The notes under the pieces: model-generated
The model's database searches: none
The model's input: only the letters and a program-made list of their open reading frames with translations
Told to the model about the DNA's origin: nothing
Translations under genes and position numbers: made by a program
In this document: piece by piece, positions 1 through 4,214 of the stretch
How the letters are laid out: every line of letters starts with the position of its first letter
How positions within the stretch are numbered: position 1 is the stretch's first letter
Source of the DNA: Sphingosinicella sp.
GTDB taxonomy: Bacteria; Pseudomonadota; Alphaproteobacteria; Sphingomonadales; Sphingomonadaceae
Reading direction: 5' to 3'
DNA length: 58,624 nucleotides
Assembly (NCBI RefSeq): GCF_013911755.1
Contig: NZ_JACESP010000024.1
Coordinates: 1-58,624 of the forward strand

Positions 1-78
1 GGGGAAGTATATGATGTTGTCGGCGGCGGGGCGGTTTTCGGGGGGGAGCGTCGGGCCGATGTAGACGCTTAGAGGCAT
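1..78 (-). CDS. TfuA-like protein, N-terminal 26 codons (runs off the window)
   Basis: An ATG at 78 opens a frame that stays open to the window edge. The first residues, MPLSVYIGPTLP, match the start I know for TfuA-like proteins, a hydrophobic strand followed by a GPTL motif. TfuA proteins partner certain YcaO enzymes and are thought to supply activated sulfur for backbone thioamidation, as in trifolitoxin loci and methyl-coenzyme M reductase modification. The start codon lies inside the last codons of the YcaO gene (overlap 69-78), so the two are probably translationally coupled. Only 26 codons are visible, so the family call rests on the N-terminal motif plus the YcaO neighbour. Confidence 0.7.
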   Translation of the reverse strand, partial: MPLSVYIGPTLPPENRPAADNIIYFP

Positions 79-1247
79 TGTTCGGCGCCCAGCAGACCCG
101 GCATCCAGAGCCGCACGACGCTGACGCCGGGTAGTGAGAGGTCGCATCGCAGCATGTTTCGCACGCCGTCTTCCGCAAGGCCCGTGCAGAGCGCCGGTAA
201 GGACGGGCGCGCGTAATAGGCATCGCGCACGCGGCGCCAGTCCGTGCTTTGACCGGTCGGCGCCCCGAGCGCGCGGCGGCCGGCCTGCGTGGGCTCTTCG
301 GGCGTGATATCGTCGCGCGCGCCGCTGATGATGGTGAGGCGCGACTGCGCCGCCTCCGCAAAGGCGCGGAACAGCGCGTCGTCGGGATCGGGGCGGCAGG
401 CGGCGCCGAGAAACGAGGGCGCATAGCCCGGATCGTCGAGACGGCACATCACCACGGGCAGCCGGCCGACGCCTTCGACGATGTAGACGGCAATGGCGAT
501 GCCGAGATCCGCGAGATGATCGACCAGCGCGTGGAACCACGGGGCTTCGATCGTTTCTGGATCGACGCGCGCGCGGGCCTGCCCGGCCATGCCGCTTTTC
601 AGCCAATACGCCTGCGCGTCGCGTTCGATGCGTTCGAAGAGCGCCGCGCGCGTGGCGTCCTCAAGGCTTGCCCCCGCACCGAGGCCGAGGCTCGACCGCG
701 CGAACGGGCTGTCGCCGTCGAAGGTGAAATCCACCGAAACCGTGTCGAAGGGAACGAAGACGCGGCCGCCTTCGGGGAAGCGTTCGGCCGCGTACCAGCG
801 GATCGGCGCGTCCGGCCACTGCGTGCGGCTCGGCCGCACCTCGCCATAATCGAGGAAGCGAGGCAGACGCGCCTCTTCGGGAAGATCGTCAAAACGGCAG
901 AAAGGCCCGTCCGCCTGCACCGACTCCGCGCAGGCCCCCTCGATTGCTTCCATCGCTGCGGAAATGCGCGCATCGGCCTCGCAGCGCCCCTTGCCCTGAT
1001 GCACGGCGAGAGACCGGCTCATCGGCCGCACCGCCTGAAACACCGGCAGACCGATGCGGTCGAGGTGCGTCACCTCGCCGATCCGGGTGACGCCCGCCCA
1101 CTCGAGCGCCGGGCCAAGGCGTGCCAGCATTTCGGCGGCATCGACCTGCCGCCAGCGGTCCGAGGGCGGTACCAGCGTCAGCCATTCGGGAAGCAATCGG
1201 TCATGACCATCCGCTCGCCGCCGGGCTCCGGCAGCGTCACCGTTCAT
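69..1247 (-). CDS. YcaO-family ATP-dependent peptide-modifying enzyme
   Basis: A protein of about 392 residues with the YcaO nucleotide-binding signatures. Glutamates lie in MEAIEG near residue 101, ExxERD in FERIERDAQAYW near 206-216, and E-x2-QSR near 299-304. The SLGLGAG turn precedes the second motif. YcaO enzymes use ATP to activate a peptide amide, making azolines, amidines or thioamides. The C terminus lacks the PxPxP tail typical of azoline-forming YcaOs, and the next gene encodes TfuA; both favour the TfuA-dependent thioamidating group. GTG at 1250 and ATG at 1247 are adjacent candidate starts and I prefer the ATG; the ribosome binding site is weak. The gene follows the 90-residue peptide gene by about 19 bases, so one transcript is likely. 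The substrate is unknown. Confidence 0.88.
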   Translation of the reverse strand: MNGDAAGARRRADGHDRLLPEWLTLVPPSDRWRQVDAAEMLARLGPALEWAGVTRIGEVTHLDRIGLPVFQAVRPMSRSLAVHQGKGRCEADARISAAMEAIEGACAESVQADGPFCRFDDLPEEARLPRFLDYGEVRPSRTQWPDAPIRWYAAERFPEGGRVFVPFDTVSVDFTFDGDSPFARSSLGLGAGASLEDATRAALFERIERDAQAYWLKSGMAGQARARVDPETIEAPWFHALVDHLADLGIAIAVYIVEGVGRLPVVMCRLDDPGYAPSFLGAACRPDPDDALFRAFAEAAQSRLTIISGARDDITPEEPTQAGRRALGAPTGQSTDWRRVRDAYYARPSLPALCTGLAEDGVRNMLRCDLSLPGVSVVRLWMPGLLGAEQCL

Positions 1248-1266
1248 CACGAACCGGCTGCCCGCT

Positions 1267-1539
1267 TTACCTGCCGCCGCCCCAGGTCTGCTGGAAGGCC
1301 ATGACGTTGTTGGACTTCGGCAGCTTCACGGCCTCGACAGAATCCCCGGCCTTCTTCGCAGCCTCGAAGATGCGGACGAGGTTTTCGACGTCGCTCTTTT
1401 CCTGCGCGGTCGTCGCCTTCGCGAGTTCGTAGGTCGCGACCGACTGGGTGACGTAATACGTCTCGCCATCCTTGATGATGAAGGTCGGGTCACTGGAGCC
1501 GCCGAGCTCAACGCGCGTGATCGTCGGGGGAATGCTCAT
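1267..1539 (-). CDS. Small protein (90 aa) upstream of YcaO; candidate RiPP precursor
   Basis: I do not recognise this family. The ATG at 1539 is preferred over an in-frame ATG at 1575 because a good AGGAGG lies about seven bases upstream of it. The 90-residue product has no cysteine, signal peptide or membrane segment. A possible beta-hairpin (FIIKDGETYYVTQ, about 20-32) is followed by a likely charged helix (about 42-64). It ends in a short Asn/Gln/Trp-containing tail finishing WGGGR. That leader-like N half plus a short glycine-rich tail, directly in front of ycaO and tfuA on the same strand, is what a ribosomally made, modified peptide precursor looks like. It could instead be a binding partner or leader-recognition protein. 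The precursor role is inference from context. Confidence 0.6.
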   Translation of the reverse strand: MSIPPTITRVELGGSSDPTFIIKDGETYYVTQSVATYELAKATTAQEKSDVENLVRIFEAAKKAGDSVEAVKLPKSNNVMAFQQTWGGGR

Positions 1540-1623
1540 GGGTTCTGCCTCCTGCCTGATGGATTCAGTCCGCATTGCCTACGTCCGGCCGCGGAAAAGC
1601 GCCAGAGACAAAGAGGGTGAAGA

Positions 1624-1854
1624 TCATATTTCGAGGAGGTTGGCAAAGGGCGCGTCCTCCTCCCCTGCACACTTCCCGATCCGGATTCTGCTCGGACGGT
1701 GCTCGCCGACGAAGGTTTGTTTCGCCGCATCGGCACCCGCAAGCATCGCGGGCGCGCCCTGCATGTGGACGGCGCGACTGGCGGGCGCGGTGGCGTTGAA
1801 CGCGGCGGCGGCGAGCGCGGCGGTAATAAGGACGCGCTTGAGATCGGACGGCAT
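1624..1854 (-). CDS. Putative small secreted protein (76 aa)
   Basis: From an ATG at 1854 the frame encodes 76 residues. They start with a plausible Sec signal peptide: basic residues, then LITAALAAAAF, then an Ala-rich APASRA cleavage region near residue 28. The mature part is about 48 residues, holds a single cysteine, and matches no family I know. A longer reading from 1923 exists, but the signal peptide only makes sense from 1854. The ribosome binding site is poor. It ends 84 bases before the candidate precursor gene on the same strand, so it may share its promoter region. The chance that this is a spurious frame in GC-rich DNA is real. Confidence 0.35.
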   Translation of the reverse strand: MPSDLKRVLITAALAAAAFNATAPASRAVHMQGAPAMLAGADAAKQTFVGEHRPSRIRIGKCAGEEDAPFANLLEI

Positions 1855-2047: not shown

Positions 2048-3010
2048 TCAGGGCTCCATTTCGTCCGCGCCGCCGCGCCAAAGATGCAGGCTGAACAGGC
2101 CGCGCGCGTCCATCCAGTAGCGGACTGGTCGCCACCCGGCGGCGCGGGCGAGCAGGCGCGCCTCCTCGATCGTGTACTTGTGGCTGTTTTCGGTGTGGAT
2201 CGTCTCGCCCTCACGGAGGCTGAATGTTTCGCCGACCGCATGAAAGCGGACGTCGCGCGTCGCGGCGAGGTGCATTTCGATGCGCCCCAGATCGTCGTTC
2301 CACAGTGCGCGGTGTTCGAAGGCATCCAGCGGGATATCGCCGCCGAGTTCGCGATTGATGCGCGCCAGCAGGTTGAGGTTGAACGCGGCGGTGACGCCTG
2401 CTGAATCGTCATATGCCGCCTCGATCAGGCGCGGGTTCTTGCGCAGATCGATGCCGATGGCGAGCCACGGCGCCTCTCCGAGCGTGGCACGGAACGCGCG
2501 CAGCAGGTCAACGGCGGCGGCATGGGTGAGGTTGCCGATCGTCGAGCCGGGGAAGAAGCCGATCATCGGGCGGTCCCGGGCGGCGTGCGGCAGCATGATC
2601 GGTTTCGTGAAGTCGGCCGCCACCGGCAGGATATCGAGGCCGGGCAGCACCTGCTCCAGCCGCGCCGCCGCATCGCGCAGGAAGCCCGCGGAAATGTCGA
2701 TGGGCACATAAGCGGCGGCGCGCACCGCCTCCACGAAGATCGGTGTTTTCGTCGATGATCCGGATCCGAATTCCACGACGACCTTGCCCGCACCCGCGAT
2801 CCATCCGATTTCATCGGCGTGCGCGTCCAGAAGCCCGGTTTCGGTGCGGGTCGGGTAATATTCGGGAAGCGTGGTGATCGCTTCGAAAAGCTCCGAACCG
2901 CGCCGATCATAAAGGTAGCGCGCCGGAATCACCTTGCGGGTCTGCGACAGGCCCCGCACCACGGCATCCGCGAAATCGTCTTTCACCAGGTCTTCTGTTG
3001 CTGACGTCAT
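2048..3010 (-). CDS. egtD: EgtD, histidine N-alpha-methyltransferase (ergothioneine biosynthesis)
   Basis: The 320-residue product should trimethylate the alpha-amino group of histidine with three S-adenosylmethionines to give hercynine, the first ergothioneine step. Visible family landmarks are RYLYDRRGSELFEAIT at 31-46, EYYPTRTE at 50-57, the SAM loop EFGSGSSTKT at 80-89, a GFFPGSTIGN segment, and ENS in TENSHKYT. The last carries the glutamate and serine that bind the substrate amino group in characterised EgtD. I chose ATG 3010 because the product begins just ahead of the conserved domain; a longer open frame upstream overlaps egtB in another frame and is artefactual. It follows egtB by 13 bases and is co-transcribed. 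Confidence 0.95.
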   Translation of the reverse strand: MTSATEDLVKDDFADAVVRGLSQTRKVIPARYLYDRRGSELFEAITTLPEYYPTRTETGLLDAHADEIGWIAGAGKVVVEFGSGSSTKTPIFVEAVRAAAYVPIDISAGFLRDAAARLEQVLPGLDILPVAADFTKPIMLPHAARDRPMIGFFPGSTIGNLTHAAAVDLLRAFRATLGEAPWLAIGIDLRKNPRLIEAAYDDSAGVTAAFNLNLLARINRELGGDIPLDAFEHRALWNDDLGRIEMHLAATRDVRFHAVGETFSLREGETIHTENSHKYTIEEARLLARAAGWRPVRYWMDARGLFSLHLWRGGADEMEP

Positions 3011-3023
3011 GACGTGTCCGTTC

Positions 3024-4214
3024 CTAAATGTCCTTCGCCAGCCGCACGCCGGTGAATTGCCAGCGCTGGTGGGGATAGAAGAAGTTGCGGTAGGTGGGGC
3101 GGGCATGGCCTTCGGGTGTCGCGCACGACGAGCCCCGCAGGATGAACTGCCCGCACATGAACTTGCCGTTATACTCGCCCACAGCGCCGGCCGCCGGACG
3201 GAAGCCGGGGTAGGCGGCGTAGGCGCTCTGGGTCCATTGCCAGCAGGTGCCGAACAGCTGCGAAAGCGCCGCGTTTTCGGCCATCGCTTCCCATTCCGCC
3301 TCGCGCGGCAGACGCGCGCCGGCCCAGCGCGCGAAGGCATCCGCTTCGAAGTAACTGACATGCGTTGCCGGTGCCGCGGGATCGACTGCCTGCCGCCCCG
3401 CGAGCGTGATCGTGGACCAGCCGCCGTCCTCGCGCCGCCAGTAAAGTGGTGCCGTGACGTCATTCTGCTCGGCCCATGCCCACCCGTCCGAAAGCCAGAG
3501 TGTCGGCATGCGGTAGCCGCCATCGTCGATGAACGCGGCCCATTCGGCGTTCGTTACCAGCCGCGATCCGAGCGCGAAGGGTTGCAGCAGTTCGGGGTGG
3601 CGGGGGGTTTCGCAGTCGAACGCGAAGCTGTCTCCGGCGTGGCCGATGGAAACGATGCCGCCGGGATGCGCCAGCCAATCATGGGCATCGGCGTTCAACG
3701 CAGGGAAGGGCGCGTCCTCCGCATAAACGGGCGCGAAGGGGTTTTCCGAAAACAGGTGCAAGATGTCGGTCAGCAGCAGTTCCTGATGCTGTTGCTCGTG
3801 GTGGCAACCGAGTGTGATCAGCGTCCGCGCGGAGTCCGGCAGATCATCGATCGCGCGGTCGAGCGCAGCATCGACGTGAGCGCGCCAGGCGAGGATTTCG
3901 GCGAGCGCCGGCCGCGTCAGCATCCCGCGCCGGTCGCGGCGAAGGCGCGGCCCGGCGGCTTCGTAATAGCTGTTGAACAGGAAGCCGTATGCCGGATCGA
4001 ACACGCTGTAGCCCGGCACATGCGGGGCAAGCACGAAGGTTTCGAAGAACCATGTCGTGTGCGCGAGGTGCCATTTCGCCGGGCTCGCATCGGGCATCGA
4101 CTGCGCGCTCGCATCCGTGTCCGAAAGCGGCGCGACGAGATCAACGCTGTGTCGCCGAATCTTTGAAAGGAACCGGCGGAGCGCGGCGTGCGCGCAAATC
4201 GTTTGTGAAGCCAT
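3024..4214 (-). CDS. egtB: EgtB, hercynine oxygenase / sulfoxide synthase
   Basis: A 396-residue protein with an N-terminal DinB-like four-helix domain and a C-terminal formylglycine-generating-enzyme (FGE-sulfatase) domain, the normal EgtB layout. The iron-binding histidines are visible: H52 in WHLAHTTWFFETF, and H139 and H143 in CHHEQQHQE. The C-terminal domain shows ARLPREAEWE, WQWTQSAY and FILRGSSC. The enzyme joins hercynine to a thiol (gamma-glutamylcysteine or cysteine) with oxygen. No egtA, egtC or egtE is in the window, as expected if this strain uses cysteine directly or keeps the lyase elsewhere. It is the first gene of the egtB-egtD pair. Confidence 0.95.
   Translation of the reverse strand: MASQTICAHAALRRFLSKIRRHSVDLVAPLSDTDASAQSMPDASPAKWHLAHTTWFFETFVLAPHVPGYSVFDPAYGFLFNSYYEAAGPRLRRDRRGMLTRPALAEILAWRAHVDAALDRAIDDLPDSARTLITLGCHHEQQHQELLLTDILHLFSENPFAPVYAEDAPFPALNADAHDWLAHPGGIVSIGHAGDSFAFDCETPRHPELLQPFALGSRLVTNAEWAAFIDDGGYRMPTLWLSDGWAWAEQNDVTAPLYWRREDGGWSTITLAGRQAVDPAAPATHVSYFEADAFARWAGARLPREAEWEAMAENAALSQLFGTCWQWTQSAYAAYPGFRPAAGAVGEYNGKFMCGQFILRGSSCATPEGHARPTYRNFFYPHQRWQFTGVRLAKDI

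Follow-up and report, generated by a model that had tools for sequence, protein, structure and literature searches.

Genes at the locus and their enzymes

The analysed window is one whole contig (C17) of 58,624 nucleotides from the genome of a Sphingosinicella sp., at the left edge of which three tightly packed genes are read on the minus strand in the order peptide, ycaO, tfuA. This order, which a first-pass annotation made from the window alone had interpreted as that of a thioamide-forming locus, is confirmed by the coordinates and recurs unbroken in all four loci retrieved from a public genome collection (L030-L033), where the peptide is found at 80-100% identity. These loci belong to two MAGs and to two named species, namely Sphingosinicella microcystinivorans DSM 19791 and S. 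soli DSM 17328, both of which are deposited. One of the records (L030) is titled as a Paracoccaceae MAG and its locus is nearly identical to that of the window genome, so that it is probably a mislabelled MAG.

The first gene (1267..1539, minus strand, stop codon included) encodes a precursor-like peptide of 90 residues and, as had been noted earlier, is preceded by a ribosome binding site, GGAGG (1548..1552, minus strand), located 8 nt before the ATG; the sequence GCAGGAGGCAGA is found at this site in five of the five aligned sequences of the genus. The last codons of the gene, W-G-G-G-R (residues 86-90), occupy positions 1267..1284 (minus strand) together with the stop codon and constitute a variable tail that follows an [NQ]T step at residues 84-85. 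The stop codon of the peptide gene is separated by 16 bp from ycaO (69..1250, minus strand), which starts with GTG and encodes a protein of 393 residues, and the start of tfuA overlaps the ycaO stop codon by 10 bp. The window holds the first 26 codons of tfuA (1..78, minus strand), and the remainder, which had been expected past the left edge, lies on contig C46 (L003:14436-15087): the ends of C17 and C46 share an identical overlap of 19 bp, and the joined reading gives a TfuA of 236 residues. Genome-wide matches at E up to 0.001 comprise one YcaO and one TfuA, the latter at the end of C46. A fourth gene, located outside the window and hence beyond the view of the first-pass annotation, encodes a TPR regulator on the opposite strand (L003:12461-14464, plus strand) and overlaps the 3' end of tfuA by 29 bp.

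Upstream of the peptide gene there is an ORF of 76 residues with a hydrophobic N-terminus (1624..1854, minus strand). It is conserved in the genus, being printed by the filter of our script in four of the five genus sequences, and has no Pfam match, and the DNA stretch upstream of it is also strongly conserved; its membership in the operon is uncertain. Further upstream (2048-4214, minus strand), a histidine-specific methyltransferase and FGE-sulfatase/DinB proteins are EgtD/EgtB-like, which places ergothioneine-type sulfur chemistry next door in the genus. As no such genes were noticed when the ORF starts at seven loci of other genera were inspected, they were left out of the cassette formed by the three genes and the regulator.

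The identities assigned earlier to the two enzymes hold. YcaO reaches 173 bits against the Pfam YcaO profile (cut-off 25.7), with profile positions 1-324 of 325 aligned, and passes the general YcaO-domain model TIGR00702 (147.6 bits vs. 75.65), while TfuA reaches 123 bits in Pfam, as scored on the near-identical L030 copy. The more specific models are not reached by YcaO: its score is 129.6 bits against a cut-off of 365 for the McrA-glycine thioamidation equivalog TIGR03266 and 79.5 bits against 219 for the SagD family, and 9.3 bits against 700 for the ribosomal-protein model YcaO_for_S12 (NF040716), all three being NCBIfam models. Azoline-forming TOMM enzymes of the SagD type have a PxPxP C-terminus, a motif that, in line with the first-pass annotation, is absent from the C-terminus of this YcaO, which ends in LLGAEQCL. 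The nearest solved YcaO structure is that of archaeal MJ1094 (E 1.2e-20, 77 bits, residues 39-317 aligned), a methanogen YcaO that has been studied for thioamidation, and the nearest solved relative of TfuA is 6xp8, a TfuA-domain protein. Moreover, in a tree of 35 YcaO rows, a branch with support 98/97 separates the 13 cassette YcaOs from all the rest, which include two other YcaOs of sphingomonads.

No exporter, protease, or tailoring gene was seen in the three-gene operon. The exporter and sulfur-carrier genes that had been anticipated near it were not seen among the ORFs examined around the cassette, and the ThiS-family and ThiF-family matches of the genome, two of each, all lie on other contigs. 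These ORFs include neither an immunity nor a RiPP-export gene, the transporters among them belonging to nucleoside and vitamin-uptake families. Thioamide-forming YcaOs outside high-sulfide settings are described as tending toward a ThiS-type thiocarboxylated carrier and a TfuA hydrolase (PMC13063428). In another genome of the order (G233), the ORF directly upstream of ycaO-tfuA (L053, 6317-8050, minus strand) displays, by eye, carrier-like, rhodanese-like, and ThiF-like segments, an arrangement that fits a ThiS-type carrier route.

The peptide family and its variable tail

The peptide had been described as lacking a recognisable family, and this description stands: the window peptide has no Pfam match, and its one NCBIfam match reaches 12 bits against a cut-off of 306. 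Searches with 14 family members gave only weak matches (DUF5486, E 0.0024, in 1 of 14; PRK04447.1-5, E 0.0059, in 4 of 14), a PDB sequence search of the family gave three matches, none of them significant (best E 0.055), and PADLOC, run on four proteins, gave no match. The gene reads as coding, since its dN/dS over six sequences of the genus is 0.22.

Searched as a single sequence in 296 genomes of the order, the peptide matched only the window's own genome, and the diverged relatives came to light among the ORFs that precede ycaO in the other 12 TfuA genomes of the order. Relatives of the peptide are known from 15 genomes of four genera, the window's included, and stand before ycaO-tfuA in each of them, the identity to the window peptide between genera being 19-30%. 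Within the genus, TfuA is present in six of six genomes, each of which also carries the peptide. Across the order, TfuA is found in 13 of 396 genomes, and a 14-row family profile detects the peptide family in 10 of the 396, all of them among these 13. All ten matches sit directly before ycaO-tfuA and none lies away from it, the opposite of the finding that would have refuted the first-pass annotation, a family mostly away from the pair; as the profile was seeded from ycaO-linked loci, the weight of this result lies in the lack of matches elsewhere. Regarding the other three TfuA genomes of the order, G155 holds a marginal family member (E 0.0095 over 2183 frames), and in G746 and G233 the pair has other surroundings. 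The ycaO and tfuA matches of G155 (L062) are split over two frames each, so that both genes are broken or misread there.

Beyond the order, a phylum sample of 398 genomes contained no convincing family member outside the window's genome. Weak matches in 11 of the 398 (E up to 0.05) were long ORFs, by eye mostly polysaccharide-export-like, and were set aside as chance. Likewise, scanning with the family profile gave no member ahead of ycaO genes from other orders and, with regard to plasmids, none were found.

Conservation is unevenly distributed along the peptide. In six genus sequences, dN/dS is 0.13 for residues 1-36, 0.46 for residues 37-57, and 0.04 for residues 58-80, followed by 1.1 for the tail region (residues 81-90) and 5.7 for residues 87-90, the last value being based on four codons in a set of six related sequences. 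When windows are ranked by their mean pairwise difference, residues 38-41 and the last four positions share the highest variability, which a random choice of four columns attained in 501 of 100,000 draws. The first-pass annotation had pointed to a glycine-rich, core-like tail and had named a uniformly conserved tail as evidence against its reading; the last residues do vary in the genus alignment, the relatives ending in WGGGN, WGGDN, WFGNR, and WFGKK, and the glycine richness is not general.

The tails that follow the [NQ]T step in the family are WGGGR, DQVP, GDWP, GERPGG, GP, GDDD, GESA, GTSG, GPEEGGG, and DN. In 10 of 11 sequences tested, the step falls among the final ten residues, the exception being that of G155, which was cut by eye at 108 residues, and shuffling each sequence gives values of 0.02-0.07 for such a placement; the step was noticed post hoc, and these sequences represent only about four independent lineages.

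The convergent TPR regulator

The TPR regulator is found tail-to-tail with tfuA, on the opposite strand, in each of the 16 cassette loci fetched besides the window's own, which correspond to 15 distinct places given that L032 and L065 are one contig. The profile used for this purpose was built from ten of the cassette regulators, and with the same profile the regulator is absent from the loci of G746, G233, and G155. The regulator is about 520-682 residues long and, in the 13 cassettes compared, overlaps tfuA by 11-98 bp. Independently of the profile, a single regulator was used as the query against its own genome and three others, one per genus. In each of the three others, its best genome-wide match lies beside tfuA and covers the C-terminal sensor half (182-204 bits, E 4e-60 to 8e-54), and the other proteins of those three genomes reach at most 58 bits.

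The DNA-binding part of the protein is BTAD in the regulator of the window genome and Trans_reg_C in six others scanned, and what is common to all four genera is the sensor half, not the DNA-binding half. A profile restricted to the sensor and built on eight cassette regulators gives 581-664 bits in four cassette genomes, a range that owes part of its height to the way the profile was built, and the highest score of any other protein across 67 genomes is 129 bits; thirteen other sphingomonad genomes contain nothing above 65 bits with this profile. In domain make-up, the regulator resembles BTAD/SARP-like, CadC-like, and cyclase proteins with a C-terminal TPR, whereas the cassette sensor is distinct from them by score and is fused to two types of DNA-binding domain. 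Taken together, the exclusive linkage, the YcaO branch, and the sensor matches indicate that peptide, YcaO, and sensor appear to be inherited together, with a DNA-binding half that differs. TfuA-YcaO thioamidated peptides are already a known kind; the new element, as judged from sequence comparison, is this fourth gene, the convergent TPR regulator that is co-inherited with the cassette.

Related sensors also occur near ycaO elsewhere. For other alphaproteobacteria, the surroundings of ycaO were retrieved as windows of about 12 kb for 20 of 24 matches in other genomes, and a related TPR sensor is present in six of these windows and lacking in 14. All six proteins carry TPR, four of them with Guanylate_cyc and two with BTAD, and one of the six windows (G526, L103) has no TfuA match. 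A whole-genome search of 20 genomes with YcaO places a sensor match (E up to 1e-10) no more than about 4 kb from a YcaO match in six genomes, five of which are also among those of the six sensor windows and three of which are one genus. As these 20 genomes hold at least 34 sensor matches in all at this threshold, the chance expectation for near-YcaO sensors is about 0.1 by estimate and may be higher, 34 being a lower bound.

Some of the loci from other alphaproteobacteria contain repeat-rich ORFs before ycaO-tfuA, namely L093 (6800-7726, minus strand), L095 (7428-7844, minus strand), and L104 (6651-7088, minus strand), with repeat units such as DAGRWAITP, DDSQRHAANFIGTTP, and GGKQRFAAG, and these ORFs look like multi-core precursors. 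In addition, a possible shared leader box of the form [KRQ]x(1-4)[GD]...[YF]x[VIL] occurs upstream of ycaO in 10 of 22 non-cassette loci (L092, L093, L095, L097-L099, L101, L102, L104, and L105), compared with an expectation of 3.3 and a count of 4 for the control strand. Among six cassette loci, it marks the family peptide in three (the window's own, L055, and L057), misses L051 and L058, and matches another frame in L056. This box was not relied on, as it was defined post hoc and the pattern was drawn from some of the same loci.

A putative thioamidated peptide and its possible roles

Thioamidated RiPPs of the TfuA-YcaO type, e.g., thioviridamide, thiovarsolin, and families obtained by mining, share with this locus the ycaO-tfuA pair and a short peptide gene that comes first (PMC6511847, PMC8120280), and the sulfur chemistry is expected to be the same. 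All such RiPPs known in 2021 came from Actinobacteria, while mining predicted 797 TfuA-YcaO precursor families and over a thousand proteobacterial clusters (PMC8120280). The precursor family described here, which has no Pfam or NCBIfam match above cut-off, may sit among these 797; unlike in the known systems, the operon comprises three genes, tailoring, export, and protease functions were not seen in it, and it is accompanied by a co-inherited convergent TPR regulator. The main text of PMC8120280 mentions regulators once, in general terms, and contains no word beginning with TPR, SARP, or Sphingo, and no mention of a TPR regulator together with TfuA was found in the open-licence texts searched. 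The McrA-glycine YcaO-TfuA of methanogens shares with the cassette MJ1094 as the nearest solved YcaO and a TfuA partner, but the equivalog score is far below its cut-off and the likely substrate here is the adjacent peptide. The E. coli YcaO that acts on uL16 has the YcaO family in common with the cassette enzyme, which scores 9.3 of 700 bits in the ribosomal-protein model; the uL16-type group has no TfuA (PMC13063428), whereas the cassette YcaO does.

The sequence evidence supports the earlier interpretation as a thioamide locus and suggests that the genes probably form a compact regulated cassette for a thioamidated peptide. We infer the thioamidation, its site, the processing, and the action of the regulator as follows. 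The precursor of 90 residues would consist of a body that is conserved and leader-like, followed by a short C-terminal tail that varies, and YcaO would use ATP to activate a backbone amide near this tail, the modified bond presumably lying at or next to the [NQ]T step. TfuA would liberate sulfide from the thiocarboxylated form of a ThiS-type carrier encoded at another place in the genome, and C=O would thereby become C=S. General proteases, proposed here because neither a protease nor an exporter was noticed in the operon, could free the peptide end. Finally, the TPR regulator would be a dedicated fourth part, with control of the operon as its most likely task, and it may sense the peptide or the product made from it.

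Several alternatives have to be weighed against this scheme. The peptide might be thioamidated and antibacterial, with the regulator as an ordinary cluster-situated activator, a reading that we consider possible and hold tentatively, and whose chemistry and odds overlap those of the best explanation. Biosynthetic clusters often contain BTAD regulators. For thioamidated RiPPs, activities described include antibiotic, antiproliferative, and cytotoxic ones, and regulators do occur in their clusters (PMC8120280); however, the ORFs examined hold no immunity or RiPP-export gene, the cassette is kept by six of six genus members searched, and the part of the regulator shared by four genera is the sensor and not the DNA-binding half.

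Much of the peptide body is well conserved in the genus, residues 58-80 and the first 36 strongly so, and the peptide could therefore be a modified small protein and not a cleaved RiPP; in that case it would be stable and carry the thioamide at its C-terminus for the sake of its own function, comparable to McrA or ribosomal protein uL16. Neither an exporter nor a protease was seen adjoining its gene, and more protein substrates of YcaO have been argued to await discovery (PMC13063428). This possibility is nevertheless rendered doubtful by the identity of just 19-30% between genera, by last residues that vary as cores do, and by AlphaFold2, which gave no confident fold for the peptide (pLDDT 55.6, pTM 0.45; five-sequence alignment). 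It is quite improbable that YcaO-TfuA acts on another substrate and that the 90-residue protein serves the pair as an adaptor or regulator: although linkage alone is no proof of the peptide as substrate, its position, its linkage, and the variable tail at its C-terminus are typical of precursors. Azoline formation and McrA- or uL16-type housekeeping modification are all YcaO activities, but a misassigned YcaO of any of these sorts is hardly credible in view of the three model scores below cut-off, the lack of PxPxP, and the adjoining TfuA, a partner that no suspected uL16-type YcaO has nearby (PMC13063428).

The regulated cassette for a thioamidated peptide, which is the preferred reading, travels with its own unusual regulator, and this is a hint that the modified peptide may be a signal. 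In peptide-sensing TPR regulators (RRNPP-like behaviour), the TPR domain binds a cognate peptide. As a speculative reading, which we regard as rather unlikely, the thioamidated tail would be the signal, and the TPR sensor would read the modified tail and drive an exchanged output module, so that the cassette would operate as a self-contained signalling unit. In sphingomonads, the exchanged outputs would then be DNA-binding domains of the BTAD or OmpR type; elsewhere in alphaproteobacteria, next to ycaO, they would be BTAD or a nucleotide cyclase of class III. The locus provides a minimal three-gene proteobacterial case with two deposited species and a candidate modification site, and the sensor-regulator pairing gives a testable guess at the purpose of such peptides.
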